Below the pieces are notes generated by a model. That model was not told the DNA's origin and searched no databases. It saw nothing but the letters and a program-made list of their open reading frames with translations. A DNA stretch of 54,704 nucleotides from NCBI GenBank assembly GCA_026393575.1, contig JAPKZX010000064.1, positions 1-54,704 of the forward strand, written 5' to 3'. Positions within the stretch are counted from its first letter, which is position 1, and the number at the start of each line of letters is the position of its first letter. Below, piece after piece: positions 6,001 through 39,498 of this stretch. The translations under genes were made by a program, and so were the position numbers. The stretch comes from Actinomycetota bacterium (GTDB lineage: Bacteria > Actinomycetota > Acidimicrobiia > Acidimicrobiales > Ilumatobacteraceae).

Positions 6001-8454
6001 AAGACAGGACCGTATGACACAAATCAAACCATCGCTGTTTTAACCAATGACATCCCGTCTGCGCAATGGGACGCGACGTCGGTGAAGTTGTGTGGACTTG
6101 CTGATGCTGCTGCATCTCCACCTGTGACGGCGGAAACCCCAAATAACTGCACGAAGTCTTCGGTGACGGTTCCTGGTGAAGGCACGGACACAGTGAACCC
6201 TGATGGCACTGTCACATTTAATCCATTACCAACATTTGTTGGGCCTGTTGCAACGCCAGTTACATACCAAGTAACAGATGTACTAGGGCGCACTGCAGAT
6301 GCTGATATCAGACCTACTGTTTTGCCACCTCCACCACCAATTGCCACTCCAGAGACACGTGTTGTCGTTCCAAGTGGAACTGCAACATTTACCAATGTGA
6401 TTGGCACATCTGCTCTAGCTAGTGGTGTGCAGTTACAAACCGGAACTACCAATGGGCCATGTTTGGTTGACCCTGCTACATCATTATGTGGAACCACCGT
6501 GGTGATTGCTGGTCAGGGAACTTGGACCATTGATCAAACAACCGGAGTAGCAACGTTTGTTGCTGAAGCGGGAATTACTCCTGGAAACAAAACTCCGGTC
6601 ACATATCGGGTTACTGACTTTGCTGGTCAAACTGCGACAAGTACTTTGACGCCGATTGTTCCACCACCGCCGTCTGCAACAGACGATTTCTCTTCTGGAC
6701 CATTTGATACAAATCAAACGTTGACACCATTTAGTAATGACTCTTTTGATTCGTTGGCCCCAGTCCGTGCAACAAGCTTGAGATTGTGTGGTGACACAGA
6801 AACTCCGAATAGTTGCTCTCAGACCAGCGTTGTTGTACCGAATGAGGGCACATACACAATCAATTCCGATGGCACGGTCACGTTCGATCCGTTGCCTACC
6901 TTCTTTGGGCCTGCAGCACCCTTGCCATATCAAGCTGAAGATATTTATGGCCGCTTTGTGGATGCCACCCTCAACCCTTCTGTGTCACGACCAAATGCCC
7001 CAGTGGCTCTACCAGAAACCAAAGTTGTATTGCCGGGAGGCACCATCACATTCACCAATGTCATTGGTGCATCTGCCTTAGCGAGTGGTGCACAATTGCA
7101 ATCTGGTGCAACCAATGGTCCGTGTCTAGTTGATCCCGCCACATCTCTGTGCGGAACAACAGTGGTGATCGATGGTGAAGGAACATGGACTATTGACCAA
7201 ACAACCGGAGTTGCCACATTTGTTGCTGATCCAGAAATCACTGTTGGTACTAAGACTCCGGTGACATATCGCGTCACTGACGCAGTTGGTCAAACAGCTT
7301 CAAGTACTTTGACACCAATTGTTCCACCGCCTCCAACCGCAACGAATGATGCACAAACTGGGCCACTAGACATAAATCAGACGTACAGACCATTGAACAA
7401 TGATTCATTCAATTCTCTCGCCCCTGCATCTCCTTCTACTCTCAGATTGTGTGGCGCTGGTCAGACACCAAATACTTGCGACAAGACAACTATTGTTGTG
7501 GCTAATGAGGGAACGTACACCGCTTACTCCGATGGTCGAGTCATCTTTGACCCATTACCAACGTTCATTGGTACGGCTACACCAATCTCGTATCAAGTAG
7601 CTGATATCTATGGCCGAACAGTTGATGCGACTATCACACCAACCATTCTTCCGCCACCTATTCCTGCAGCCACGCTTGACACTGGCAAGGCAAAAGAAGG
7701 AAAAACTGTTGTGCTAACTCCCTGGCTGAATGACTCAGCAGGAGTTGTTGTCGCTGGTCAAACAGGGAAAGCATCGCTTGTACCGACAACGGTTCGTCTA
7801 TGCCCGCTAAACACGGTGGCTACGAAAGATGTTCTTGCATCTGGTCAACCAGATCCAGAGTGTACCTTGATGAAACTCACAACTGCAGATGGCACGTATA
7901 CGGTTGACCCGAAAACCGGAAAAGTCACCTTTGTTCACCGTAAAGGTTTCATCGGTGAAGTAACCCAGCCAGTTCCATATCAAATTGCAACCGACTGGAA
8001 AATTCCATCTGGCATTCTCACTGCTCGGAGCATGCTCATTCCAACCATCATGCCTCTGCGCACGCCGATGGTGACGATTGGTGACAAAGTATGGCGCGAT
8101 GTCAACGGGGACGGATATCAAAATAAGGCAGACCGTGGGATTGCAGGAGTAAAGGTGACGCTTCGTACTGCATCGGGTGAAGTTGTGGTCGACATAAACG
8201 GCAGTGAAGTCGGACCTCAATTCACCGACAAAAAAGGTAAATACAAATTCACGGATCTTCCTGCCGGTCGATACAAGGTAATAGTTGAGTATCCGAATGG
8301 CCTCGAACCGACAATTGCTAATCGCAAAGGAAGAGAGAAAAACTCGTCAACTCGGAGTGCATTGTCGCGTGAGTTAGTACTTGGCCAAAGTGACAATTCA
8401 TTGGACTTTGGCATGGTGGGTCGTCGTAAACCAGGCTTGGCGCACACGACTTAG
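1..8454 (+). CDS. Giant CshA-like repeat surface protein, 5' truncated
   Basis: The reading frame is open from base 1, and the first residues (TFTGQVQTAVRYQ) match the inside of a repeat, so the true start lies upstream. About 23 complete repeats of 110-122 residues follow. Each carries YDxNQTYTPLGND, SSVKLCG, a second Cys about 10-20 residues later, VPGEGTYTV, DGTVTFxPLPTF, TYQAKDSLDRF and TITPT, and ends in a proline linker. This resembles the CshA-type fibril repeat of actinobacterial and streptococcal adhesins. From about base 8068 a different domain (IGDKVWRDVNGDGYQ, then DKKGKYKFTDLPAGRYKV) matches the SdrD B-like/Cna-B fold. The protein ends GRRKPGLAHTT with no LPxTG motif or final membrane helix, so its anchoring is unclear. 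A role in adhesion or cell-surface fibrils is inferred from the family. The N-terminal signal cannot be seen. Confidence 0.85.
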   Translation, partial: TFTGQVQTAVRYQANDSLNRFVNSTITPTVGPPPTPQATADALTRDYDTNHTYTPLGNDTRGANDFPLLASSVKLCGLADTTATPPVTAETPNNCTKTSITVPGEGTYTVNSDGTVTFDPLPTFTGQVQTAVRYQANDSLNRFVNSTITPTVGPPPTPQATADAITTDYDTNQTYTPLGNDTRGAADFPLLATSVKLCGLDDPTTLNTDETEIPNVCSKSSVTVPGEGTYTVNSDGTVTFNPLPTFTGTVTTPVTYQAKDSLDRFVDETITPTIGLPPAPTASPDAIRDSYDKNQTYSPLGNDTPGVTEFPLLASSVKLCGIADASATPPVAAETPNNCTKSSVTVPGEGTYTVNPDGTVTFNPLPTFTGTVATPVTYQAKDSLDRYVDDTITPRVDPPTAPIASPETQSVLPGATATYTTVIGPSGLGTGTGLQSGSTNGPCLVDPVTTLCGTSVNIPGEGTWTINQTTGVATFAASSSIAPGTRTSVTYRITDIAGQTATSTLTPVVPPAPDVKNDASTGLYDTNQVIDILDNDDPGHSSAPLVASSVKLCGLDPLQTPNSCDKTSVTVPGEGTYTVNPDGTVTFNPLDTFAGTVTRPVTYQVADTLGQIDSATITPTVTPPALNVVNDTSSGLYDINQVIPVLTNDTPGAEWVLSSVKLCGLDPLQTPNGCDKTSVTVPGEGTYTVNPDGTVTFNPLPSFTGQVQTPVTYQVTDILGRTEDATITPTVGPPPLPTASPDALTRAYDTDQTYTPLGNDTRGAPDFPFVASSLKLCGIDPAETPNNCSQTSLTVPGEGTYTVIPDGTVAFDPLPTFVGQVATPVKYQAKDSLDRSVNTTITPTVLPPPIPTASPDAITTDYDTNQTYTPLGNDTRGAADFPFVASSLKLCGIDPVQTPNNCTQTSLTVPGEGTYTVNSDGTVSFNPLPTFVGQVAAPVKYQAKDSLDRFVNATITPTILPPPAPTAQPDAITDDYDKNQTYTPLANDPRGATDFPLLASSVKLCGIDPVQTPNSCDKTSLTVPGEGTYTVNPDGTVTFNPLDSFAGTVRTPVTYQAKDSLNRFVDETITPTVTPPPINVVNDTSTGLYDINQVIPVLTNDTPGAEWVPSTVKLCRLADTTATPTVTAETAPNCTQTSVTVPGEGTYTVNPDGTVTFNPLPSFTGQAQTPVTYQVTDILGRTEDATITPTVGPPPLPTASPDALTRNYDTDQTYTPLGNDTRGATDFPFVASSLKLCGIDPAETPNNCTQTSLTVPGEGTYTVNGDGTVTFDPLPTFVGQVATPVKYQAKDSLDRFVNTTITPTVLPPPIPTASPDAITTDYDTNQTYTPLGNDTPGAADFPLLASSVKLCGIDPAQTPNNCDKTSLTVPGEGTYTVNPDGTVTFNPLPTFVGQVATPVKYQAKDSLDRFVNTTITPTVLPPPAPTAEPDAITDTYDKNQTYTPLANDPRGATDFPLLASSVKLCGIDPVQTPNSCTQTSVTVPGEGTYTVNPDGTVTFNPLPTFVGQVATPVTYQAKDSLNRFVDETITPTILPPPLPTAQPDATTTDYDTNQTYTPLANDPAGAPSFPLLASSVKLCGIDPVQTPNSCDKTSVSVPGEGTYTVNPDGTVTFNPLPTFVGQVATPVTYQAKDALDRFVDETITPTILPPPLPTAQPDAITTDYDTNQTYTPLGNDTPGAADFPFVASSLKLCGIDPVQTPNSCDKTSLTVPGEGTYTVNGDGTVTFDPLPTFVGQVATPVKYQAKDSLDRFVNTTITPTILPPPLPTALPDAITTDYDTNQTYTPLGNDTAGAPDFPLLASSVKLCGISPLQLPNNCTQTSLTVAGEGTYTVNPDGTVTFNPLPTFVGQVATPVKYQAKDSLDRFVNTTITPTILPPPIPTARPDAITTDYDTNQTYTPLGNDTAGAPDFPLLAASVKLCGIDPAQTPNGCDKTSLTVPGEGTYTVNANGTVTFDPLPTFTGTVDTPITYQAKDSLNRYVNTTITPTITAPAITVVDDTKTGPYDTNQTIAVLTNDIPSAQWDATSVKLCGLADAAASPPVTAETPNNCTKSSVTVPGEGTDTVNPDGTVTFNPLPTFVGPVATPVTYQVTDVLGRTADADIRPTVLPPPPPIATPETRVVVPSGTATFTNVIGTSALASGVQLQTGTTNGPCLVDPATSLCGTTVVIAGQGTWTIDQTTGVATFVAEAGITPGNKTPVTYRVTDFAGQTATSTLTPIVPPPPSATDDFSSGPFDTNQTLTPFSNDSFDSLAPVRATSLRLCGDTETPNSCSQTSVVVPNEGTYTINSDGTVTFDPLPTFFGPAAPLPYQAEDIYGRFVDATLNPSVSRPNAPVALPETKVVLPGGTITFTNVIGASALASGAQLQSGATNGPCLVDPATSLCGTTVVIDGEGTWTIDQTTGVATFVADPEITVGTKTPVTYRVTDAVGQTASSTLTPIVPPPPTATNDAQTGPLDINQTYRPLNNDSFNSLAPASPSTLRLCGAGQTPNTCDKTTIVVANEGTYTAYSDGRVIFDPLPTFIGTATPISYQVADIYGRTVDATITPTILPPPIPAATLDTGKAKEGKTVVLTPWLNDSAGVVVAGQTGKASLVPTTVRLCPLNTVATKDVLASGQPDPECTLMKLTTADGTYTVDPKTGKVTFVHRKGFIGEVTQPVPYQIATDWKIPSGILTARSMLIPTIMPLRTPMVTIGDKVWRDVNGDGYQNKADRGIAGVKVTLRTASGEVVVDINGSEVGPQFTDKKGKYKFTDLPAGRYKVIVEYPNGLEPTIANRKGREKNSSTRSALSRELVLGQSDNSLDFGMVGRRKPGLAHTT
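1207..1539 (+). repeat. Type B repeat module, copy 1
   Basis: This 111-residue unit is unlike the standard repeats. It starts IASPETQSV, has NGPCLVDPVTTLCGT with the two Cys eight residues apart, then GEGTWTINQTTGVATF. It sits inside the standard array. Confidence 0.8.
1879..4617 (+). repeat. Duplicated four-repeat super-unit
   Basis: Two consecutive blocks, 1879-3234 and 3235-4617, each hold four repeats in the same order with the same unit-specific signatures: NVVNDTS(S/T)GLYDINQV, TASPDALTR.YDTDQ, TASPDAITTDYDTNQ and TA(Q/E)PDAITD.YDKNQ with LANDPRG. The blocks differ in length mainly by a 27-base insertion in the Cys-Cys loop of the first unit of block two. This indicates a roughly 1.36 kb segmental duplication within the gene. 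Confidence 0.8.
6340..6672 (+). repeat. Type B repeat module, copy 2
   Basis: This unit is exactly 333 bases, like copy 1. It contains NGPCLVDPATSLCGT and GTWTIDQTTGVATF and is followed by a divergent standard repeat. Confidence 0.8.
7003..7335 (+). repeat. Type B repeat module, copy 3
   Basis: This unit is 333 bases and nearly the same as copy 2. Copies 2 and 3 alternate with divergent standard repeats near the C-terminus, as expected from duplication of a B-plus-standard pair. Confidence 0.8.
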
Positions 8455-10975: not shown

Positions 10976-13249
10976 TTATTCCCCGGGGCTAGCGGCTAAC
11001 GGTGCATTTTGTTCGGCTAAACGGCGCTCACCGTTTTCCAATGCATCCATGAGGTGAATTGCAATGTCTGCAACTTTCACGGTGTCTTCTTCAGCACCCG
11101 CGGCCTTCACACCATCGTCAAGCATGATGTAGCAGAAGGGGCATGCAGTTGCGACGCGACTTGCGCCGGTACTGATTGCTTCTTGAGCACGTTCGTCATT
11201 GACTTTGGTACCAATCGACTCTTCCATCCACATGCGAGCACCACCGGCGCCGCAGCACATGCCTTTTGTTCCGTTACGTGGCATCTCAACAATTTGTACG
11301 CCCTTGATGGAACCAACAATCTTTCGAGGTGCTGAGTACACGTCGTTGTGGCGACCCAAGTAGCACGAGTCGTGATACGTGATGCGATCTTCGAGTGACG
11401 CATTGCGGATATCGAGCTTGCCCGTATCAATGAGGTGTTCGAGGAATTCACTGTGGTGAACCACTTCGTAGTTACCACCCAATTGTGGGTACTCGTTCTT
11501 CAACGTGTTGAAGCAGTGTGGGCATTGCGTAATAATCTTGCGCACTCCCATGCCGTTCAGCATTTCAATGTTTGGAATCGCAAGCATCTGGAAGAGGTAT
11601 TCGTTTCCAGAACGACGAGCCGAGTCACCTGTACACATTTCGCTTGGTCCCAGAATGGCAACATCAATGTCTGCGCGCTCGAGCAACTTGGCCATTGCTT
11701 GCGTGACTTTCTTGTTCTTGTCATCGAAGGAACCTGCACAACCCACCCAGTACAAGTACTCGTGATTGAAAGCAGCTCCTGGGTCGACAACATCGACGTT
11801 CAAGTCTTTGGCCCAATCGGCACGATCATCCTGGTTCATACCCCAAGGGTTTCCTTGGTTTTCCATGGCGCGGTATGCGTTGCCAAGCTCCGCAGGGAAA
11901 TTGCTTTCCATGAGTGACAAGTAACGACGCATGTCGAGGATCTTGTCGAGAATTTCAATATGCACGGGGCAAATCTCGTCACATGCTTTACACGTAGTGC
12001 ACGCCCACACTTCTTCTGCGGTGATTCGTTCAAACAATGAGTTCGCACCAATGGTGATTTCTGAATCAACGGAGAGCGGTGGAGAAACCATTCCGCCAGC
12101 TGCGTGAGTAGCTGTTGCGGCCATTACTTCACCGGTCTTTAGAACAATCTCGCGAGGGTCAAGTGGCTTACCTGTCGCATGCGCAGGGCACACACTTGTG
12201 CAGCGACCACACATGGTGCAGGCATCGGTATCAAGCAATTGCTTCCACGTGAAATCTTCAACCACTGCAGCGCCAAAACTCTCGAGAGAAGTCTCGGTGA
12301 GGTTTGGCATTGCACGCATTGCACCTTTCGGACGGTCACGGTCTTTGAGGTACATGTTCAGCGGCGAAGTAAAGATGTGGCGCAACATGGTGATTGGCAA
12401 CAAAGCCAAGAAGGCAATGAATGACACAACGTGGGCAACCCACATTGCTTGATGCCAATTCTCTAATGCGTTCAGCGAAGAACCGTCGACTAACTGTGAG
12501 AGTGGGTAACCAATAAAGGACCAGCTCTCAAACGACATGTCTTTGCCGCCAACGGTAGATACAGCGATGCGGAACATTTCTGCACCGAAGCCGGTGAGGC
12601 CAATGGCCAACATGACACCAAGGATGATGCCGTGTTCTTTCTTGGTCTTAATGCGAATGCGATATGGCTGCTGCACGTAGCGACGAATGATGGCCCACAC
12701 GACTCCAATGGTGAAAACGAGTCCAGCGAAATCACCAACAAATACGTAGCCCTGGTACACGCCACCGTGGAGGAACTTCAGTGACTCTGGTAATTGATGG
12801 TCCAATTCAAGAACGGTGGTTACGCCGAGAAGTACAAGGAAACCGAAATACATCATGGAGTGCATGAGACCAGCTGCACTGTCGCGCAACAACGTACGCA
12901 TGTAGACGCCGGCACGGTAATCAGCAAGACGACGCTTTGCGTTCTTTGGTGTTGTGCGACGGCGATCCGGTGCACCGCGTTCCCAGTTGCGAATGCGATT
13001 GGCGAACTGGAATGAACCCCATACCAACATGGCGGGAAGGATTGTGTAGAAGGCGGCCTGCAATGGGCCAGGAATTCCTTCGAACACTTCACGTGTGACT
13101 TCAGAAGTTGCGTGCCACTTTGTGAACTGCGGGACGATGCCCGACAACAAAGTGAAGGAACCCATGCCGATGCCGATGGCTATCGATAGTTGGTATGGGC
13201 GAAGGCGCTTGGGGCCCTTCTCGGTGGTGGGAGACGCGTTGCTACTCAT
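10976..13249 (-). CDS. etfD: EtfD-like membrane iron-sulfur oxidoreductase
   Basis: The product is 757 residues. The N-terminal half has about six membrane helices (e.g. residues 20-40, 65-85, 130-150, 168-190, 207-232, 268-293) like a nitrate-reductase gamma/heme b domain. Two 4Fe-4S motifs follow: CTMCGRCTSVCP near 344-354 and CTTCKACDEICP near 417-427. Two CCG (DUF224) domains come after these, including a CCGAGGARMW motif. This is the architecture of mycobacterial Rv0338c, named EtfD, which is proposed to take electrons from ETF during fatty acid oxidation and pass them to the quinone pool. Upstream, TAGCGT lies nine bases before the ATG. Acyl-CoA dehydrogenase and enoyl-CoA hydratase genes at 51-53 kb fit that role. 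The etfA/B genes are not in this window. Confidence 0.87.
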   Translation of the reverse strand: MSSNASPTTEKGPKRLRPYQLSIAIGIGMGSFTLLSGIVPQFTKWHATSEVTREVFEGIPGPLQAAFYTILPAMLVWGSFQFANRIRNWERGAPDRRRTTPKNAKRRLADYRAGVYMRTLLRDSAAGLMHSMMYFGFLVLLGVTTVLELDHQLPESLKFLHGGVYQGYVFVGDFAGLVFTIGVVWAIIRRYVQQPYRIRIKTKKEHGIILGVMLAIGLTGFGAEMFRIAVSTVGGKDMSFESWSFIGYPLSQLVDGSSLNALENWHQAMWVAHVVSFIAFLALLPITMLRHIFTSPLNMYLKDRDRPKGAMRAMPNLTETSLESFGAAVVEDFTWKQLLDTDACTMCGRCTSVCPAHATGKPLDPREIVLKTGEVMAATATHAAGGMVSPPLSVDSEITIGANSLFERITAEEVWACTTCKACDEICPVHIEILDKILDMRRYLSLMESNFPAELGNAYRAMENQGNPWGMNQDDRADWAKDLNVDVVDPGAAFNHEYLYWVGCAGSFDDKNKKVTQAMAKLLERADIDVAILGPSEMCTGDSARRSGNEYLFQMLAIPNIEMLNGMGVRKIITQCPHCFNTLKNEYPQLGGNYEVVHHSEFLEHLIDTGKLDIRNASLEDRITYHDSCYLGRHNDVYSAPRKIVGSIKGVQIVEMPRNGTKGMCCGAGGARMWMEESIGTKVNDERAQEAISTGASRVATACPFCYIMLDDGVKAAGAEEDTVKVADIAIHLMDALENGERRLAEQNAPLAASPGE

Positions 13250-29550: not shown

Positions 29551-29867
29551 TAGTCCTGCTGCATCGTGGCCCAAAGACCATGTTCATGAAGTCGAAAGAC
29601 ATCCATTTCGGCGTGCTCGCGTGACCCCGTGGACACAACAGCTCGACCCTTTTCGTGGACGTCCAGCATCAACAGATCGGCTTTTTCCTTTGAGTATCCA
29701 AAGAGTTTTTGAAAGATGAAAGAGACGTACGACATGAGGTTGATGGGGTCATTCCACACGAGCACAATCCAGGGCGTATCGAGGTCGACAACTTCGTCGA
29801 CCTTCTCGGTGAGGTCAGGCTCGGCAATCTGGGATTGTGCGACTGTCGCAGATGTGGTGAATGACAC
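29550..29867 (-). CDS. clpS: ClpS adaptor protein
   Basis: The 105-residue adaptor delivers N-degron substrates to ClpA/ClpC. The core [22 protein letters not shown] has the Asn/Asp-containing substrate pocket, and [31 protein letters not shown] is typical. The product ends WATMQQD, nearly the same end as mycobacterial ClpS. The GTG at 29867 is chosen because it gives the usual length. A much longer frame runs on antisense to ctaB and is not credible. CAGAAT lies six bases upstream. The start is 55 bases from the divergent ctaB start. Confidence 0.9.
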
Positions 29868-29886
29868 GAGAACATTCTGCTGGGGA

Positions 29887-29916
29887 TTGGGCGTTATTGC
29901 TTGCTCAACATACGAT
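29887..29916 (+). promoter_or_regulatory. Promoter of ctaB
   Basis: TTGGGC (29887-29892), 18 bases, then TACGAT (29911-29916), followed by six bases and an in-frame GTG at 29923. This supports a leaderless start earlier than the ATG at 29944. Confidence 0.5.
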
Positions 29917-29922
29917 GTCAGG

Positions 29923-30858
29923 GTGCCCCTCAACGTCCGCCCCATGGTTCCTTCGCGTTTAGCGCGTCGTGGTGGCCATGAATCCGGCCGCGCCCCCACC
30001 AATGTTGTTGCTGGGTACATTGCGCTCACAAAGCCCAGAATTATTGAGCTTTTGTTGATTACCACGATTCCCACCATGGTTGTCGCTGCAGGTGCATGGC
30101 CCGGAGTGTGGCTCATGGTGGTCACTTTTGTAGGCGGGGCACTCGCTGCTGGTGGTGCCAATGCCATCAATATGTATGTGGATCGCGACATTGATGCACT
30201 GATGGAACGGACCAAGACGCGTCCACTTGTGACGGGGTTGATTTCTCCACGCAACGCACTAATTTTCGCTATTTCCCTTGAAATCATTGCGTTTGCCATT
30301 CTCTGGGCAGGGGCAAATTTCCTCTCGGCCTGCCTCGCTCTCTCGGCAACCCTGTTTTACGTCTTTGTGTACTCGCTGTGGCTAAAGCGCACCAGTAAGC
30401 AGAACATCGTCATCGGTGGGGCGGCTGGGGCCGTGCCCGTCTTGGTGGGCTGGGCTGCAGTGACGAATTCTCTTGCCTGGACGCCTTGGCTCCTTTTTCT
30501 CTTGATTTTCCTGTGGACACCCCCTCACTTTTGGGCCCTAGCGATTCGCCATAGCGAGGAATATCGGGCTGCCAATGTTCCGATGTTGCCTGTTGTTGTC
30601 GAGCCCAAAAAGGTCGTGGCAGCCATGATTCGCTACACGGTGGCTTTGGTGGCCTGCAGCATGGCGGTCATCCCCGTTGCAGATATGGGCTGGATCTATG
30701 GCGTCTCTGCCGGGGCCGTGGGCGCAGCCTTTTTATGGGGCACAATTGCACTAACTCGAGTCAATACCCCAGCCGCAGCAATGAAGCTGTTTTCGTTCTC
30801 CATCACGTATATCTCGGTCCTCTTTGTGGCCCTCACCGTGGACGTGCTGCTGCGTTAA
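29923..30858 (+). CDS. ctaB: Protoheme IX farnesyltransferase (heme O synthase)
   Basis: The 311-residue UbiA-family membrane prenyltransferase converts heme B to heme O, a precursor of heme A for the oxidase encoded downstream. The first Asp-rich motif [21 protein letters not shown] and the second [17 protein letters not shown] are seen, with about nine membrane helices. The GTG at 29923 is supported by TACGAT six bases upstream. The ATG at 29944 remains possible and loses only seven residues. It leads the cytochrome oxidase region. No ctaA (heme A synthase) is found in the window. Confidence 0.93.
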
Positions 30859-30978: not shown

Positions 30979-32622
30979 GTGTCTCTGGGAGACCATCCGA
31001 AAATGACCACCATCGACAATCCAGTCGGCGCATCGACACAGGCACAGGGCTTCGGCTCTTCTTTTGTCATTGCCCTAGGCAAATGGATGACTAGCAGCGA
31101 CCATAAAAAGATTGGGCGACTATTCATCGGTTGCGCTTTATTCACTGCGGTATCTACATCAATCATCGGCGCAGTGTTCGGTCTCGAGCGCATGTCGCCG
31201 GCACAGATGGACATCTTCGACGGTGATGCAGCGATTCAGCTCATCTCGCTATATCGATTTGATCTTGTCTTGGGACTCCTTGCACCTCTCTTCTTGGGTA
31301 TTGCGTTAGCGATTGTTCCGCTTCAACTTGGTTCTCGCGCTATTGCATTCCCACGCCTTGCCCAACTCAGTTTCTGGTCATGGCTCTTTGGCGCACTCAT
31401 GGTCGCCATTGCAATCATTGGTAATGGTGGCCCAGGCGGTGGACAAGCCAATCTTGTAGACCTGTATCTCTTGGGCGTTGCGCTTGCTGCGACAGGCATC
31501 CTTGCCGGAAGTCTTTCTGTTGCAACAAGTGTTCTCACCGCGCGTGCTCCTGGCATGACATTGGACATCGTTCCTGCTTTTTCATGGGGTGCACTCGTAG
31601 GTTCAGTTGCATCGCTTCTCACGTTGCCGGTTGCAATCGGAACCATCATCTATTTGTATGTCGACAACACGCACGCCAAAGTTGCGTTTGGCGGCAGTAA
31701 GGCCATTGACGATCATCTCGGATGGGTCTTTGGCCAACCAATGACAATCGTGTTTATTGTCATTGCTCTTGGTGTGCTTGCCGATATTGCACCTGTGACT
31801 GCTGGTGTTCGTCAGCCACAACGCCCAGTTGTACTCGTAGGTCTTGGTCTCATCACTACAGCAGTGCTTGGTGCCGCAACACAATCAACGCACATGCTCG
31901 ACTGGTCGGGAAATACAAGCGACATCGTGAAGTCCGCAATTCCATTCCTTATTTTCAACGGTCTTCCACTTCTTGGAATTTTCGTTGTGATCGCGATCTC
32001 GCTGTTGTCACTGAAGTTTGGCTCGCCAAAAGTAAGTGGCGCCTTCGCACTCGCTTCATTAGGCGCGTTCATGATTCTCGTCGGCGCCGCTGGCAACTTC
32101 GTTGCGCACATTCAGCAAGCAAATCTTGCGGGAACTGCATTCAACGAAGGTGTCACTGTGTACTTCGCATTCGGTGGACTTCTTGTTGGCCTCGGAGCAT
32201 TAGCTCACTGGGCACCGAAATTGTGGGGCCGTGTTCTTGATGAAAAAGCACTTCTTGGACTTTCTGCGCTTGGACTTCTTGGCACCATCGCATCGTCGTT
32301 CCCTCTCTTCATCGCCGGCTTTGCAAACCAGCCAGTCGATGTAGTGAATGGTTTTGATTACGACGGTCCGATTGCGTTGTGGAATGGAATTGCTGGAATT
32401 GGCAACATTCTCATTCTTGTCACCGTTATTGGTTTTGTCGCTTTGTTGCTCGCAGCTATTCGTAATGGCGCGCAAGCGTCAGACGATCCATGGAATGGGC
32501 ATTCACTCGAATGGGCGATTCCTTCGCCTGCTCCGCTGAATAATTTTGAAGCACTTGCTCATGTAAATTCGAGCGAACCAGTTTTAGATGCAAAACCATC
32601 CGGTAAGGAGGTGACGGTATGA
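30979..32622 (+). CDS. Degenerate heme-copper oxidase subunit I paralogue lacking metal ligands
   Basis: The 547-residue protein has about 12 membrane helices and aligns with the genuine CtaD at 35621: SSDHKKIG, PLQLGSRAIAFPRL, LTARAPGMTLD and PKLWGRVLDEK are shared. The cofactor ligands are gone. The helix II heme a His (HATTMIF in CtaD) is Tyr92. The helix VI CuB His is Gln253 in FGQPMTI, with the gate Glu and crosslinked Tyr now Met255 and Ile257. The helix VII HH is TH (304-305). Both helix X His (HFH) are Val392 and Val394. It therefore cannot bind heme a, a3 and CuB in the known way. Residues are numbered from the GTG at 30979. The ATG at 31003 is an equally good start. It overlaps the next gene by four bases. 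It is probably a structural or regulatory membrane partner, with function unknown. Confidence 0.8.
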   Translation: MSLGDHPKMTTIDNPVGASTQAQGFGSSFVIALGKWMTSSDHKKIGRLFIGCALFTAVSTSIIGAVFGLERMSPAQMDIFDGDAAIQLISLYRFDLVLGLLAPLFLGIALAIVPLQLGSRAIAFPRLAQLSFWSWLFGALMVAIAIIGNGGPGGGQANLVDLYLLGVALAATGILAGSLSVATSVLTARAPGMTLDIVPAFSWGALVGSVASLLTLPVAIGTIIYLYVDNTHAKVAFGGSKAIDDHLGWVFGQPMTIVFIVIALGVLADIAPVTAGVRQPQRPVVLVGLGLITTAVLGAATQSTHMLDWSGNTSDIVKSAIPFLIFNGLPLLGIFVVIAISLLSLKFGSPKVSGAFALASLGAFMILVGAAGNFVAHIQQANLAGTAFNEGVTVYFAFGGLLVGLGALAHWAPKLWGRVLDEKALLGLSALGLLGTIASSFPLFIAGFANQPVDVVNGFDYDGPIALWNGIAGIGNILILVTVIGFVALLLAAIRNGAQASDDPWNGHSLEWAIPSPAPLNNFEALAHVNSSEPVLDAKPSGKEVTV

Positions 32623-33224
32623 CAATCGCACTACCCGCAGCACCACAGACCGCACCACGCCGTCAGATTTTTGTTGCAACTGCACTTGCATGTGCTTCAG
32701 CGTTCATGATCATTATTGGAATGGTCGCAATGTGGATGAAGTTCCGCGCTGGAGCACCTACGCGAGACTCCGCCGATGGCTTGTATGTCATCAAAGACTG
32801 GCTTCCTGCTTCCATCACTATTCCTGAAGTGGCAGCGAACGTCATGTTGATTACTTTCCCAGTTGTTGCGCTCATGGCGCAGTGGGCTTCGTACTCAGCA
32901 AAGCGTCGCGACTCTCAACACCGCTCATTGGCATTAGCAATTTGTGCGGTACTGGGTATTGCTGTTGTCAATGGTCAAGCAGCTATCTACGCACAAATGG
33001 AAATCGGATTGGCCGATGGTGCGTATCAGACCATGTTCTACGCAATCACTGGCGCAATGTTGCTGCTGGTCGTTGGTGGAATCGCATTTAGTTTTGTTGC
33101 GTTGTTCCGCTCCGTTGGTGGTCGTGAAGACGACACCGATGTTGTGAATTCACACGCGTTGTATTGGTACTTCCTCACGGCGGCATTCACCGTCTTGTGG
33201 TTCTTTGTGTACGTACAGAAGTAG
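32619..33224 (+). CDS. Degenerate oxidase subunit III paralogue
   Basis: The product is 201 residues with about five membrane helices. It resembles the genuine CtaE at 37602 in length, helix spacing and local motifs (YAITG for YSLTG, and ALYWYFLTAAFTVLWFFVY for GLYWHFVDIVWIIIFTLIY). The conserved HGVH of subunit III is replaced by hydrophobic residues (TGAMLLLVVGG), and the His in YWHF is Tyr. It is coupled to the upstream subunit I paralogue by a four-base overlap (ATGA) and has a good ribosome site (AAGGAGG). The parallel loss in both paralogues suggests one complex that no longer does oxygen chemistry. Assignment rests on weak similarity plus context. Confidence 0.65.
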   Translation: MTIALPAAPQTAPRRQIFVATALACASAFMIIIGMVAMWMKFRAGAPTRDSADGLYVIKDWLPASITIPEVAANVMLITFPVVALMAQWASYSAKRRDSQHRSLALAICAVLGIAVVNGQAAIYAQMEIGLADGAYQTMFYAITGAMLLLVVGGIAFSFVALFRSVGGREDDTDVVNSHALYWYFLTAAFTVLWFFVYVQK

Positions 33225-33230
33225 GTCGAC

Positions 33231-34355
33231 ATGTTTACTCCTAGCTCCAAATACTTCGTAGGTCTCACGGGCATAGCGCTCGTTTCGGCGATCTTGTACA
33301 TGTTCTTGATCAATCCTTCAGATCTCGGTGCGATTGCTCTCTTCGGAGTTGCGGCATCTTCAGCACTTGTTGCTGGGTTCACTTTGTTTACTCGCGACGG
33401 CGATGCGTTTACAGATGAAGAAGCTGTTGCTGCAGCTACGTATGCACCAGGTGGCTCCATCTGGCCAATCGTGTTTGCACTTGGTGCCGCTTTGGTACTT
33501 ACAGGTTTGGCAACTGTTCCAGTTGTATTCATCCTTGGTATCGGAGTGTTGTTTGGTGCCGGTCTTGAATGGACAATTCAGAACTGGTCACAACGTGCTT
33601 CTGCAGATACAGCGTTCAACAGTTTTGTTCGTGAACGTGCAATTGGTGCGCTTGAATACCCTGGTCTTGCAGCAGTTGGTCTTGCAATTATCGCGTACCT
33701 CTTCTCTCGCATTGTTCTCGCAGTCTCCAAAGAAGCTGGACCAATAATTTTCATCGTTGTTGCTGCGGCAATTTTGGTAGTCGGAATCTTGATTTCTCAG
33801 AAGCCGGCACTGCGCGGCAGAGTTACGGTTCTCATTTCCACAGCAGCAGTGATTGCGCTCGTAGTTGTCGGAGTCATCGCTGCATTGTCTGGCGAGCGTC
33901 ATGAACTTGCAGTGTCTTCCGAAGAGGATCACTACTCAGCCGAGCATCGTGAGTGTGAAGTTGCGGCCTCAGAGCATTACGACCATCTCGCCAACAATCA
34001 GGTTTCGTTGCGTTCTGCCGTGACCGCCACAATCTTTGTTGAAGACGGCAAATTACGTGCTCAAGCAATCGGCATCAAAAAAGACATCGACACCATCACT
34101 ATTCCTCGTTCATTGGGTACAACAGTGATATTCCGTAACCTCGACGAAACGGAGCACCGTCTTGTCGTCAACCTCGGCTCGCACACCGTTGCGGAAACCG
34201 GCGTGAAAGAAAAAGTTGGCACCTGCACCCAACTCACCGGCAAGAAGCAGGAACAAGCTCTCACTCTTACCATTCCAAAACCAGCCACTTCCGAAGAACC
34301 ATATTTCTTTGAGGTTCCTGGTATTGAAGGTGAAATCAAGTTGGTGGTGCCGTGA
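33231..34355 (+). CDS. CtaF-like membrane protein fused to cupredoxin-like domain
   Basis: The product is 374 residues. Residues 1-120 resemble actinobacterial cytochrome oxidase subunit IV (CtaF): two N-terminal helices, a polar loop, GGSIWPIVFALGAALVLTG and GIGVLFGAGLEWTIQNW. About three further helices (145-225) follow, then an exported domain of about 140 residues: TTVIFRNLDETEHRLVVNLGSH, a Cys in GTCTQL and an end FFEVPGIEGEIKLVVP, typical of a cupredoxin fold. His and Cys residues could bind copper, but the full type 1 set is not evident. It lies six bases after the subunit III paralogue, and its TGA overlaps the ctaC GTG. The fusion is unusual and the role unknown. Confidence 0.7.
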   Translation: MFTPSSKYFVGLTGIALVSAILYMFLINPSDLGAIALFGVAASSALVAGFTLFTRDGDAFTDEEAVAAATYAPGGSIWPIVFALGAALVLTGLATVPVVFILGIGVLFGAGLEWTIQNWSQRASADTAFNSFVRERAIGALEYPGLAAVGLAIIAYLFSRIVLAVSKEAGPIIFIVVAAAILVVGILISQKPALRGRVTVLISTAAVIALVVVGVIAALSGERHELAVSSEEDHYSAEHRECEVAASEHYDHLANNQVSLRSAVTATIFVEDGKLRAQAIGIKKDIDTITIPRSLGTTVIFRNLDETEHRLVVNLGSHTVAETGVKEKVGTCTQLTGKKQEQALTLTIPKPATSEEPYFFEVPGIEGEIKLVVP

Positions 34356-35608
34356 GTCACCACAATAATTCGCAGACAACGGAAAAGGCTATGGATACCG
34401 TGAACAACGTGAAGTCATCTCGTCGACGCATTAGTACAACTGTGGCTGGTCTTACTGGTTTGTTGTTCTTGGCCGGTTGTGCCACGAACGCCCCGCAAGA
34501 TACATGGCAAGCAAAAGGCCCCAACGCACAAAAAATTAGTGATCTCCAATGGATCGTGTTCCCAATCGCTGGTGTAGTTGGTGTTCTCGTACTGGCACTT
34601 GCCGGCTACATCATGTTTAAGTATCGCGACAAGGGTCAGCCAATTCCTACGCAAGGTCACGGCAAGCCAACTGCAGAAATCATTCTCACAATTGTTCCTG
34701 CACTGATCTTGACCGTTGTAGGTGTGTTCACATTCCGCGCCATTTTTGAACTTGCAAAAACTGAAGACACTGAGATGATCATCAACGTCACTGGTCAACA
34801 GTGGTGGTGGGAATATGACTATCCAGTTCAAACTGAACTTGGTATCAACACACCAATCATTTCGTCTGGCCAATTGGTTATGCCAGTAGGTACAAAAGTT
34901 TTGCTTCGTGAAACCAGCCGCGACGTTATTCACTCGTACTGGATTCCTGCTTTGAACGGCAAGAAGGACGCTGTTCCTGGTCGTATTCATTTGCTTCGTC
35001 TTGAAGCTGACAAGCCAGGTATTTTTGCCGGACAGTGCACAGAGTTCTGCGGTCTGTCTCATGCCAACATGCGCATGGAGGCAGTTGCCCTCTCTAAAGA
35101 AGATTTTGCGAAGTGGGTCGCTAGTCAACAGAAGGCGTATACATCGCCAGCCGATGGCACTCTGGCTAAAGAAGGCGAAACAGTCTTCTTGAACCAGTGC
35201 GTTCGTTGCCACCAAGTCAATGGTCTGAAGAAAGCCGACGGAACACCAGCGTTGGCCGCACCAGACGAGAACGTGTATTCCGGTGCTGCACCAAACCTTT
35301 CGCACCTCATGTCACGTAACACTTTCGCCGGCGCAATGTTTGACTTGCTTCGAAAGAGCTGTCGCGCAGATGTTTGGGATGCCACGTCAGAAGAATTCGG
35401 CGCAAAGTATTTGGCCGGAGTATCTGAGTCATGTCTCAATCAAACTGATCTTCGTGCATGGTTGCGTAATGCTCCTGCAATGAAGCCGATGTATGCAGAC
35501 CCCACCAAGTTGACGAAGACCGGTGGAAAATATCGTGGAATGCCAAATCTTGGTTTGACCGAGAATGACATTGACAAACTCGTTGCCTATCTGTTGACGT
35601 TGAAGTAA
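34352..35608 (+). CDS. ctaC: Cytochrome c oxidase subunit II with fused cytochrome c (caa3 type)
   Basis: The product is 418 residues from GTG. A signal segment ends in lipobox LAGC (Cys43). Two membrane helices follow, then the CuA domain with His194, Cys229, Glu231, Cys233, His237 and Met240 (GQCTEFCGLSHANM), and a C-terminal cytochrome c domain with CVRCH (283-287) and a distal Met near GMPNLG. It accepts electrons from cytochrome c or bc1 and passes them to heme a. The GTG overlaps the upstream stop. An ATG at 34391 would give a shorter, cleaner signal peptide and is a real alternative. ctaD follows after 12 bases. Confidence 0.95.
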   Translation: MSHHNNSQTTEKAMDTVNNVKSSRRRISTTVAGLTGLLFLAGCATNAPQDTWQAKGPNAQKISDLQWIVFPIAGVVGVLVLALAGYIMFKYRDKGQPIPTQGHGKPTAEIILTIVPALILTVVGVFTFRAIFELAKTEDTEMIINVTGQQWWWEYDYPVQTELGINTPIISSGQLVMPVGTKVLLRETSRDVIHSYWIPALNGKKDAVPGRIHLLRLEADKPGIFAGQCTEFCGLSHANMRMEAVALSKEDFAKWVASQQKAYTSPADGTLAKEGETVFLNQCVRCHQVNGLKKADGTPALAAPDENVYSGAAPNLSHLMSRNTFAGAMFDLLRKSCRADVWDATSEEFGAKYLAGVSESCLNQTDLRAWLRNAPAMKPMYADPTKLTKTGGKYRGMPNLGLTENDIDKLVAYLLTLK

Positions 35609-35620
35609 TCGGAGAAATTT

Positions 35621-37609
35621 ATGGCGATCATTGAACGACCTTCATCTGAAGTGGCTACACCTGCGGTGGTAGCTCCTAGCCAGGCACTGGGCGCCATTCG
35701 TCGGCCAGTTGCATCTAAGGGCTGGCGCTCGTGGCTGTTTACAGTCGACCACAAGAAAATCGGCATCATGTATGGCGTTGTCGCCATGGTGTTCTTCATT
35801 GTCGGTGGTGTTGAAGCACTGTTGATTCGTTTGCAATTGGCTCTACCTGATGGTCGCATTCTTAGTGCTGATCAGTACAACCAAATGTTCACCATGCATG
35901 CCACGACCATGATTTTCCTTTTCGCAATGCCTATGGCAGGTGCGTTTGCTAACTACTTCTTGCCGCTGCAAATTGGCGCACGCGACGTTGCATTCCCGCG
36001 TCTGAACGCATTGTCGTTGTGGTTGCTTGTCGGTGGCGGACTCATTCTGAACGCTTCATGGTTCCTTGGTGGAGCCGCTGACGGTGGTTGGTTCATGTAT
36101 GCGCCAAACTCTGGCCCAGTGTTCTCACCAAGTAATGGTGTGGACTTCTGGGTGCTTGGTTTGCAAATTGCAGGTATCGCATCACTCATTGGTTCCATCA
36201 ACTTGATTGTCACCGTGTTGAACATGCGTGCCCCAGGCATGACCCTTATGAAGATGCCGGTGTTCACCTGGATGATTCTCGTCGTGCAGTTCCTTCTCGT
36301 GTTCTCACTTCCAGTCATTACCGTCGCACTTGTTCTACTTATGTTCCAGCGCTCGTATGGGGCAACGTTCTTCGACGTGTCTCAAGGTGCAGACCCGCTT
36401 CTCTGGCAGCACTTGTTCTGGATCTTTGGTCACCCCGAGGTGTACGTATTGATTTTGCCGGGCTTCGGAATTATCTCTGAAGTGTTGCCTACGTTCTCGC
36501 GCAAGCCACTGTTTGGTTATCCATTCGTGGTCTTCTCTGGTGCATCGATCGGCCTCGTTGGTTTCGGCGTGTGGGCTCACCACATGTTTGCCGCTGGTCT
36601 TGGCCCTGTTTCAGTTGCAGTGTTCTCCATTTCAACAATGGCCATTGCGATTCCAACTGGAGTAAAAATTTTCAACTGGTTGCTCACTATGTGGGGTGGC
36701 AAGATTTGGTACACCACTGCAATGAAGTTCGCAATCGGACTTGTCGTGCTGTTTACAATCGGCGGCTTGTCAGGTGTTACTCACTCAGTTGCGCCGTCTG
36801 ACACACAGCAAACCGATACCTATTACATCGTTGCTCACTTCCACTACGTGTTGTTCGGTGGAATGGTCTTTGGTTTGTTCTCTGGTTTCTATTACTGGTG
36901 GCCAAAAGTATTCGGCAAGTTGTTGAACGAAAAACTCGGTTCCTGGAACTTCTGGTTCATGGTGATTGGTATGAACCTCACCTTCGGCCCGATGCATATT
37001 CTTGGCCTTCAAGGTCAACCACGCCGTATGTATGTATGGACAGAAGCTCGTGCAGGCGAAGGATTGTTCAACTTTGGCTTCTGGAACATGGTTTCTTCAA
37101 TTGGGTCATTTGTTCTCGCTGTCGGCATTCTGTTCTTCCTGATCAACGTTGTCATTACGGCACGCAATGGCAAGCAAGCACCAGCCGACCCATGGGATGC
37201 TCGCACGTTGGAATGGTTAGCTACTAGCCCTCCAAAGGAACACAACTTTGATCGCATCCCAGTTGTTCATCACTTGGATGAGTTCTTCCACCGCAAATAT
37301 GAAGAAGATCCAAACACGCACACCATGCGTCAGATTGCAACGGGTGAAGAATTGATTCGCGCAGAAGAAGCAGCTGCTGATTCAGACATCCATCTCCCTG
37401 GCCCGTCGTACTGGCCTTTGGTTCTCGCCATTGGTATTGGAGTTTTGGGCTTGGGTGTTGTCTACGGAACGCCAGTCATGGTTGTTGGTGCTGCTGTAGT
37501 TCTTCTTGCTTCATTCGGATGGGTTCTTGAGCCTTCCGTTCCAGAAGCAATTGACTATGCCTCACCAGATGGTGACGGACACTCGAAGGAGATCGCTACT
37601 CATGGCTGA
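35621..37609 (+). CDS. ctaD: Cytochrome c oxidase subunit I with C-terminal extension
   Basis: The product is 662 residues. All ligands are present: His93 and His408 for heme a, His406 for heme a3, and His271, His320 and His321 for CuB, with Glu273 and Tyr275 of HPEVY and K-channel Lys349. It is thus a functional A-type oxidase core that reduces oxygen and pumps protons. The protein is about 100 residues longer than a minimal CtaD. After an acidic linker it adds two helices (PSYWPLVLAIGIGVLGLGVV and MVVGAAVVLLASFGWVLEP) that resemble the second half of CtaF. Its end overlaps ctaE by eight bases. Confidence 0.97.
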   Translation: MAIIERPSSEVATPAVVAPSQALGAIRRPVASKGWRSWLFTVDHKKIGIMYGVVAMVFFIVGGVEALLIRLQLALPDGRILSADQYNQMFTMHATTMIFLFAMPMAGAFANYFLPLQIGARDVAFPRLNALSLWLLVGGGLILNASWFLGGAADGGWFMYAPNSGPVFSPSNGVDFWVLGLQIAGIASLIGSINLIVTVLNMRAPGMTLMKMPVFTWMILVVQFLLVFSLPVITVALVLLMFQRSYGATFFDVSQGADPLLWQHLFWIFGHPEVYVLILPGFGIISEVLPTFSRKPLFGYPFVVFSGASIGLVGFGVWAHHMFAAGLGPVSVAVFSISTMAIAIPTGVKIFNWLLTMWGGKIWYTTAMKFAIGLVVLFTIGGLSGVTHSVAPSDTQQTDTYYIVAHFHYVLFGGMVFGLFSGFYYWWPKVFGKLLNEKLGSWNFWFMVIGMNLTFGPMHILGLQGQPRRMYVWTEARAGEGLFNFGFWNMVSSIGSFVLAVGILFFLINVVITARNGKQAPADPWDARTLEWLATSPPKEHNFDRIPVVHHLDEFFHRKYEEDPNTHTMRQIATGEELIRAEEAAADSDIHLPGPSYWPLVLAIGIGVLGLGVVYGTPVMVVGAAVVLLASFGWVLEPSVPEAIDYASPDGDGHSKEIATHG

Positions 37610-38213
37610 GACCGCAACTCACACTGATCACGCAGCAGACCACGGGCATCATTCGTCCACTGGTTTGTCTAACAACAAGCTCGCAATGTGGCTCTTCCTG
37701 GGCTCAGAGTGTTTGTTGTTTGGTGGACTTATTTCTACATACATGCTGTATCGCGGTCGCGTACAGAATGGCCCACACCCGTCGCAGATTTATGACATTC
37801 CATTCACTTCAGTAAGCAGTTTCGTTCTGCTTATGTCATCACTCACCATGGTGTTAGCAGTGACTTCAGCACAACGCGATGATGACGCTCGCACCAACCT
37901 GTGGCTCACCATTACTGCACTTCTCGGTGCAACCTTTATTGGTGGCCAGGTATACGAGTTCACCACGTTCTACCGCGAGGGTCTGGGCTTCACCACAAGT
38001 TTGTTCAGTTCTAGCTTTTACTCATTGACCGGATTTCACGGAGTTCACGTTTCAGTGGGTGTGATTATGTTGCTCTCCACAATGGGCATCATTAAGCGCA
38101 ACAAGATCACTGGTAACAAAGCCGAAGTGGTTGAACTAGTTGGCTTGTATTGGCACTTCGTCGACATTGTGTGGATCATCATCTTCACACTGATTTATCT
38201 GATTCCATCTTGA
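37602..38213 (+). CDS. ctaE: Cytochrome c oxidase subunit III
   Basis: The 203-residue, five-helix membrane protein has the family motifs WLFLGSECLLFGGL, GQVYEFTTFYREGLGFTTS, TGFHGVHVSVG and GLYWHFVDIVWIIIF. The N-terminus is His-rich (HTDHAADHGHH). The ATG at 37602 follows GAAGGAGAT and overlaps the end of ctaD. The longer frame from 37506 lies inside ctaD and is rejected. It stabilises subunit I. Confidence 0.95.
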   Translation: MAETATHTDHAADHGHHSSTGLSNNKLAMWLFLGSECLLFGGLISTYMLYRGRVQNGPHPSQIYDIPFTSVSSFVLLMSSLTMVLAVTSAQRDDDARTNLWLTITALLGATFIGGQVYEFTTFYREGLGFTTSLFSSSFYSLTGFHGVHVSVGVIMLLSTMGIIKRNKITGNKAEVVELVGLYWHFVDIVWIIIFTLIYLIPS

Positions 38214-38226
38214 TCGGGAGCAACGC

Positions 38227-38532
38227 ATGAGTACGGAAACACAAACACAGAGTCACGAACACGGCATGTCAGATACTGGGTACATAAAGATTGCTCTTAT
38301 TCTTGCTGCCATTACAGCGCTCGAAGTATCTACGTATTACGTAGATTTCGGTCCTCTGTTCATGCCTTCTTTGATGATCATGATGGTCGTCAAATTCGTC
38401 ATGGTTGTTTCTTATTTCATGCACTTAAAGTTTGATAGCAAGATCTTTAGTTTCTTGTTTTATACAGGTCTCGGTCTTGCACTGTTTGTGTACATCGTCG
38501 CGCTGGCAACATTTAAGTTCTTTATTGCTTAA
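38227..38532 (+). CDS. Cytochrome c oxidase subunit IV, prokaryotic COX4 family
   Basis: The 101-residue protein has three membrane helices. IKIALILAAITALEVSTYYV and MVVSYFMHLKFDSKIFSFLFYTGLGLAL are typical of the small subunit IV of caa3 or bo3 oxidases. The N-terminus is polar with several His. It starts 13 bases after ctaE with a plausible ribosome site (GGGAG). Confidence 0.88.
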   Translation: MSTETQTQSHEHGMSDTGYIKIALILAAITALEVSTYYVDFGPLFMPSLMIMMVVKFVMVVSYFMHLKFDSKIFSFLFYTGLGLALFVYIVALATFKFFIA

Positions 38533-38550: not shown

Positions 38551-39498
38551 GTGCTGATCGCAGCAATTGAACCAACGCTAAACACGGCTCCGTGGCGTTT
38601 TCAATTTCACCCTGAAATCTGGATTCTTGTAGTCGGCCTTGTGGCGGCTTTTGTCTATGCCGTGCGAGTTGTGGGTCCCAAAGTGGCTCCCGCTGGCCAG
38701 GTCATCAGCCGTAAGCAAATCCTCACATTCTGTTTGATGATTGTGATGTTGTGGCTGGCAAGCGACTGGCCGGTACACGACATCGCCGAGGAATACTTGT
38801 ACTCAGTACACATGATGCAGCACATGGCGATTACGTATTTTGTACCCCCATTGGCGTTGCTAGCTACACCTGAATGGTTGTTTCGATTGCTCATCGGTCA
38901 GGGGCGGTTGTACAGGGCAGCGCGATTCTTAACCCGGCCAGTGGTAGCTGCTGTTGTGTACAACTTGGTCGTCGTAACCACGCATATTCCTGCACTGGTG
39001 AACAGAAGTGCCGCGGGTGGCCCATTGCACTATGGCTTGCATGTCATCTTGGTTTTGAGTGCATTGATGTTGTGGACTCCCGTGTGTGGACCAGCACGAG
39101 AATGGCGCATGACGTATGGCGGCATGATGCCGTACTTATTCGCAACATCTCTGGTTCCTACCATTCCTGCAGGTTGGCTGACTTTCGCCGAAGGTTCTGT
39201 ATATAACCACTACGACACACCAGTTCGAGTGTGGGGCTTGTCCGTGTTGAGTGATCAGCAATTGGCCGGTGGAATTATGAAGCTTGGTGGGTCAGTCTTC
39301 ATGTGGTGCATCATCATCGTCATCTTCTTTAAGAGATTCATGAAGAACTTCTTTTCTAATCAGTCGTATGCATCCAGTAGCGAAATTCCCGATGCAGAGA
39401 TAGTGGGCACCGATGCTCCACTCATGTATTCCGATGTGGAATCTGCATTTCAACGTGTGCGTCCAGCCACCGAAGGCGAAACCACGCCCGATTCATAA
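38551..39498 (+). CDS. ctaG: CtaG-type oxidase assembly protein
   Basis: The 315-residue multi-helix membrane protein of the caa3_CtaG family is linked to copper delivery and assembly of cytochrome oxidase. The conserved block SDWPVHDIAEEYLYSVHMMQHMAITYFVPPLALLATPEW, with its His-rich helix, is clear. GVWGLSVLSDQQLAGGIMKLGGSVFMW near the end also fits. The start is GTG at 38551, 18 bases after subunit IV. It is the last gene of the oxidase set, and the GNAT gene follows after one base. Confidence 0.9.
   Translation: MLIAAIEPTLNTAPWRFQFHPEIWILVVGLVAAFVYAVRVVGPKVAPAGQVISRKQILTFCLMIVMLWLASDWPVHDIAEEYLYSVHMMQHMAITYFVPPLALLATPEWLFRLLIGQGRLYRAARFLTRPVVAAVVYNLVVVTTHIPALVNRSAAGGPLHYGLHVILVLSALMLWTPVCGPAREWRMTYGGMMPYLFATSLVPTIPAGWLTFAEGSVYNHYDTPVRVWGLSVLSDQQLAGGIMKLGGSVFMWCIIIVIFFKRFMKNFFSNQSYASSSEIPDAEIVGTDAPLMYSDVESAFQRVRPATEGETTPDS

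Follow-up and report, generated by a model that had tools for sequence, protein, structure and literature searches.

A conserved, predicted cofactor-free pseudo-oxidase module upstream of the caa3 oxidase operon in Acidimicrobiales

The terminal oxidase operon of an Ilumatobacteraceae bacterium (Acidimicrobiales, Acidimicrobiia) carries two genes for heme-copper oxidase subunit I, and in the upstream one nearly all metal ligands appeared to be replaced, which raises the question of what kind of protein it encodes and why an organism with an intact oxidase retains it. The window analysed here is a stretch of 54,704 nt (contig JAPKZX010000064.1, assembly GCA_026393575.1), and all positions refer to its forward strand.

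Gene content of the operon

The upstream subunit I gene, psI (30979–32622, plus strand, 547 codons), encodes a predicted cofactor-free, CtaD-like paralogue of heme-copper oxidase subunit I. The ATG at 31003 is the probable start, given that all 58 sequences compared from the family have Met9. It is preceded by ctaB (29716–30858, plus strand) for heme O synthase of the UbiA family (Pfam UbiA, 221 bits), an operon neighbour whose upstream position is shared in order-wide loci and whose start is uncertain, the listed ORF being over-long. Downstream and on the same strand follow psIII (32619–33224) for a CtaE-like subunit III (Pfam COX3, 35.8 bits; NCBIfam aa3_CtaE_Actin, 41.7 bits) and cupTM (33231–34355), whose product, as judged by profile, AlphaFold2 and structural matches, combines a CtaF-like 4-TM part, three further TM helices and a periplasmic domain of cupredoxin fold that lacks copper ligands. 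The genuine oxidase genes, also on the plus strand, are ctaC for subunit II with a CuA motif and a fused cytochrome c domain (34352–35608; Pfam and NCBIfam profiles), ctaD for subunit I with all ligands kept and a C-terminal CtaF-like tail (35621–37609; profiles and alignment), ctaE for subunit III (37602–38213), a COX4_pro small subunit gene (38227–38532) and ctaG for the caa3 assembly factor (38551–39498), the last three assigned by Pfam. The start of psIII overlaps the stop of psI by 4 bp, as does the start of ctaC the stop of cupTM; gaps of at most 10 bp separate psI and psIII in 80 of 80 Ilumatobacteraceae loci and cupTM and ctaC in 70 of 72. psI, psIII and cupTM form one three-gene dead module of CtaD-, CtaE- and CtaF-like genes, located between ctaB and a normal ctaC-D-E-COX4-ctaG series. 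psI and the true ctaD are the two COX1 genes detectable in the host genome, the assembly of which is 82% complete. Elsewhere in the window are genes for a repetitive surface protein of 2812 aa with about 20 CshA/cadherin-like repeats and an SdrD_B domain (16–8454) and, on the minus strand, for a membrane-bound, heterodisulfide-reductase-like Fe-S protein with two CCG domains, a 4Fe-4S domain and a nitrate-reductase-gamma-like part (10976–13249).

The reading frame and its relation to ctaD, as first annotated, were corroborated by profile and sequence searches. PsI scored 122 bits against PF00115 over residues 44–476, compared with 527 bits for the adjoining CtaD, and fell below the cut-off of the curated CtaD equivalog TIGR02891 (180 versus 670.75 bits); its best solved relatives in a phmmer search of the PDB were mycobacterial CtaD chains (E 1e-34). 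An AlphaFold2 model built from 58 sequences (pLDDT 89, pTM 0.90) has twelve long helices and superimposes on CtaD of 6adq and 9gy6 with Foldseek TM scores of 0.81–0.82 and VIA-align Z scores of 38.9–40.4; other A-type oxidases were also matched. Homology and fold, including the 12-TM core (VIA Z 40 to 6adq_F), place PsI in the heme-copper oxidase superfamily. The predicted fold is complete; the cofactor sites are not.

The N-terminal 4-TM part of CupTM matched three sets of CtaF chains in profile searches (E 0.001–0.015), and these hmmsearch matches are weak and extend over nearly the full chain length (9wcx_m, E 0.0013; 6adq_H, E 0.008). The AlphaFold2 model of CupTM, of modest confidence and with low confidence in the TM part, comprises seven helices and a beta domain, and only the cupredoxin domain was matched in a structural search (auracyanin and amicyanin). 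This C-terminal domain lacks the His/Cys/His/Met ligand set of type 1 copper in the host. Sister orders and other classes have a stand-alone 3-TM cupredoxin with intact His/Cys/His/Met ligands, usually encoded just after ctaG, and in the psI-bearing order this protein is fused to CtaF. Among the copies aligned, copper residues persist only in three loci (L067, L070, L072). The domain is missing in most psI-bearing families and present without ligands in Ilumatobacteraceae, a loss of copper ligands that parallels the loss of sites in PsI.

Loss of cofactor and channel residues

Heme-copper oxidases are defined by six His ligands. PsI was aligned with the CtaD of its own operon and with 39 other upstream copies found across the order. 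Its low-spin heme a His pair (TM2, TM10) is replaced by Y92 and V394, the proximal His position of heme a3 is V392, and Q253, Q302 and S303 occupy the places of the three CuB His, with I257 at the position of the cross-linked Tyr. The Glu valve of the HPEVY motif is M255; A121 and A128 stand in for the D-channel Asp and Asn, V337 for the K-channel Lys and V453/D454 for the Arg pair at the heme propionates. The alignment upheld the replacements listed in the first-pass annotation (Tyr92, Gln253, Met255, Ile257 and Val392/Thr393/Val394) and extended the loss to the D-channel, the K-channel and the propionate Arg pair. One assignment had to be corrected: the HH pair had been placed at T304-H305, two residues off, as ATQSTHM aligns with WAHHMFA and the pair corresponds to Q302-S303. 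H305 is not a retained CuB ligand, because the HH motif aligns to Q302-S303 and Q302 is kept in 55 of 58 sequences.

The same 58 family sequences have aliphatic or small residues at the a3 and a ligand positions, with His at the heme a position in only five. The former ligand columns vary (entropy of about 2 bits or more), with the exception of the two Gln replacements at former CuB His positions, Q253 (31735–31737; 50 of 58 sequences) and Q302 (31882–31884; 55 of 58), the conservation of which lies above expectation for a neutral site. It had been considered from the outset that other His residues might rebuild the heme and copper sites. No alternative conserved set of His, Cys or Met was found at candidate sites in the 58 sequences, and a rebuilt metal site was rejected on this ground; the sole His that is nearly invariant, H42, lies in the DHK motif near the N-terminus, a motif shared by active CtaD. 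Across the order, the CuB site is absent from 40 of 40 upstream paralogues examined, while the downstream CtaD retains every ligand in 38 of 39 (the remaining one is on a truncated contig), which excludes chance or artefact as the cause. With catalytic residues lost and the frame under purifying selection, PsI is predicted to be a non-catalytic pseudoenzyme, and the replaced ligands suggest that it binds no cofactor.

The upstream copies differ in how much they have lost. In a quick tree, to be read with long branches in mind, one fully supported branch separates all dead copies, with L072 and the pair L067 and L070 closest to active CtaD. L067 (5923–7554) and L070 (8989–10614) retain all three heme His and have R/A/G at the CuB positions, and their products are predicted to be heme-binding, copper-free oxidase subunits. 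L072 and L050 retain only the low-spin heme His pair. No upstream copy retains more than one CuB His, and proton-channel residues are altered already in L067, L070 and L072. These early branches with heme ligands and without CuB point to a stepwise loss of sites, in which CuB and the proton channels would have been lost first and the hemes later, a3 before a.

Conservation and selection

The module with the full cupTM fusion was found in about 47 of the 71 sampled Acidimicrobiales genomes (18 of 19 in Ilumatobacteraceae) and occurs in 16 of the 23 families of the order, being absent from seven. No full-length match to the module was present in 176 genomes of other Acidimicrobiia orders or in the phylum sample outside Acidimicrobiales. 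Within contig reach, the order ctaB-psI-psIII-cupTM-ctaC-ctaD-ctaE-COX4-ctaG is kept in 39 of 40 order-wide loci, L065 being the single fetched locus without the module, and it is shared by all 80 named Ilumatobacteraceae loci, including that of the cultured Ilumatobacter nonamiensis YM16-303. Seven of the loci with Ilumatobacteraceae-type operons (L078, L083, L085, L097, L120, L137, L139) come from MAGs titled 'Bifidobacterium breve', and these titles look wrong. One Ilumatobacteraceae genome (G161, 96% complete) had neither COX1 nor cupTM matches, either by joint loss of the operon or by an assembly gap.

Pairwise dN/dS values between close relatives were 0.04–0.11 for psI, 0.06–0.14 for psIII, 0.06–0.15 for cupTM and 0.03–0.06 for ctaD. 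The psI frame is open in 78 of 80 family loci; each of the other two, on MAG contigs, has one frameshift. Relaxation relative to CtaD is greatest in TM6, 10, 8, 2 and 7 of PsI, the helices that carry or flank the metal sites, and smallest in TM3, 12, 1, 11, 4 and 5, and the loops 118–124, 148–156, 188–199 and 411–421 are among the best conserved segments. Subunit III contacts subunit I near TM3–5 and subunit II does so near TM8–9, and the pattern of constraint would fit a module that retains subunit III and is without subunit II. The earlier argument against decay is borne out by the presence in 16 families, the purifying selection and the intact predicted fold, which together also support the proposal of a non-catalytic pseudo-oxidase under selection; conservation, dN/dS and open frames contradict the picture of sporadic, frameshifted or neutrally evolving homologues that would have spoken against it.

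Putative role of the module

We lean towards a cofactor-free pseudo-complex IV that partners the neighbouring caa3 oxidase in a structural or docking role. The module would derive from an actinobacterial-type aa3 oxidase set, and its position ahead of the caa3 operon (ctaC-D-E) would date back to an ancestor of most Acidimicrobiales. After the loss of CuB and the proton channels, then of heme a3 and then of heme a, with the blue copper of the fused cupredoxin also lost, purifying selection would have continued to act on the shell of the protein and probably on its contact surfaces. The module may assemble with the genuine caa3 oxidase translated from the same message, with translational coupling to ctaC helping to hold the stoichiometry, and could act, for example, as the inert member of an asymmetric pair of oxidases or as a complex III anchor via its CtaE/CtaF-like surfaces. 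Operon linkage and gene overlaps suggest the association with the caa3 oxidase and fall short of proof of a complex, so that partner and role are inferred. That a cofactor-free I/III/IV oxidase and the active caa3 oxidase form a permanent asymmetric complex across the order, with intermediates recording the loss of CuB, a3 and a, is conceivable at somewhat less than even chances.

Complex III is contacted mainly through CtaE and CtaF in the III2-IV2 supercomplex of mycobacteria (PMC8361435). The module has no counterpart of CtaC; only counterparts of CtaD, CtaE and CtaF are kept, and a retained contact surface is therefore suggested. Among the roles offered by the first-pass annotation, a structural one fits best, and the loss of both proton channels makes a proton-linked one less likely. 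The module is not needed by seven Acidimicrobiales families, nor by other orders whose ctaC-D-E operon is similar, which counts against a partner of the caa3 oxidase.

Complex III genes were compared between genomes with and without psI. In Acidimicrobiales, diheme QcrC is present in 8 of 40 genomes with psI and in 14 of 14 oxidase-bearing genomes that lack psI. Most psI-bearing members of the order use a short cytochrome b, whereas families devoid of psI possess QcrC together with a long QcrB. Because the short form also occurs in sister orders that have no psI, the correlation may be purely phylogenetic, and an adapter to a particular complex III is unsupported. For alternative complex III (NrfD), no clear relation to psI emerged.

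The main rival to a structural or docking partner, which we nevertheless regard as unlikely, is an assembly scaffold, that is, a transient template or chaperone outside the mature complex that stabilises nascent CtaC, CtaD and CtaE or passes on heme A or copper. The location between the heme O synthase gene ctaB and ctaC would suit such a role, as would the derivation of the fused cupredoxin from the stand-alone 3-TM protein encoded after the assembly gene ctaG in sister orders and the copper-binding residues kept in basal copies. However, copper delivery cannot be the conserved function, because the ligands are lost in Ilumatobacteraceae and the whole cupredoxin domain is missing in most other psI-bearing families, and a complete 12-helix shell is large for a chaperone. 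PsI could instead be a repurposed non-redox membrane protein, such as a sensor, a lipid or quinone binder or a gas or ion channel, that uses the emptied cavity and has no stable association with caa3. The conserved Q253 and Q302 and the new family-specific motifs NGGxxGG and GTxFxEG are in line with this, but constraint is relaxed most strongly in the cavity-lining helices, the D- and K-channel residues are gone and the gene is kept with those for CtaE- and CtaF-like subunits adjoining caa3, which makes the idea rather improbable. We consider it highly improbable that PsI is a working redox enzyme with unconventional cofactor ligation: hemes may bind in the L067 and L070 copies, because all three heme His are kept there, but the Ilumatobacteraceae proteins have no conserved His/Cys/Met set at any candidate site, the propionate Arg pair is lost and the ligand columns vary freely. 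A decaying duplicate on its way to a pseudogene, for which one could cite the loss of many otherwise invariant residues and the single frameshifts in 2 of 80 loci (possibly MAG sequence errors), is refuted by dN/dS values of 0.04–0.11, 78 of 80 intact frames and the distribution over 16 families, and its probability is close to nil.

Relation to known oxidases

The module can be compared most directly with mycobacterial aa3 CtaD/CtaE/CtaF (CIII2CIV2; 6adq, 9gy6), which likewise consists of subunits I and III and CtaF with a 12-TM subunit I; the C-terminal EW..SP.P..NF tail of PsI also resembles mycobacterial CtaD. Unlike this oxidase, the module has lost all heme, CuB, Tyr and proton-channel residues, has no CtaC counterpart and carries a CtaF-cupredoxin fusion. 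NO reductase and NO dismutase share the fold, have altered binuclear-centre ligands, retain their hemes and act on NO. Their branch resembles PsI in the altered binuclear centre, whereas PsI has no heme ligands. A terminal oxidase that likewise combines a catalytic subunit with a diverged paralogue is CydAA' of the cytochrome bd superfamily, reported by Murali et al. in 2021. The paralogue CydA' is a single subunit and belongs to an unrelated family, whereas the psI module comprises three subunits without any cofactor site beside a complete oxidase.

A description of such a pseudo-oxidase was not found in the open-access literature, with subscription journals and preprints outside the scope of the search, and this negative result is weak support for novelty. 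One heme-copper oxidase classifier and survey discarded sequences without conserved His ligands (PMC3084760), a selection rule by which pseudo-oxidases can escape notice. In a conserved pseudo-oxidase of several subunits, structural constraints on complex IV are separated from redox constraints, and its copies form a natural series in which CuB, heme a3 and heme a are lost. Actinobacteria abundant in fresh water, the sea and soil make the role of a cofactor-free respiratory shell open to direct tests. A categorically new kind of respiratory assembly is plausible, provided that the asymmetric complex exists.

A second, separate class of ligand-poor subunit I proteins was seen in further orders of Acidimicrobiia and in other classes. 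These are CcoN-like (L173, 6570–8492; L174, 10415–12091; L175, 156–1580; L177, 2816–4369; L178, 2643–4586), score 97–196 bits against a ccoN cut-off of 583 and on visual inspection show neither the HH nor the HxH motif. Some of them carry a C-terminal CcoO-like cytochrome c fusion, and in L173 and L174 a gene for a short cytochrome b is located a few kb away.
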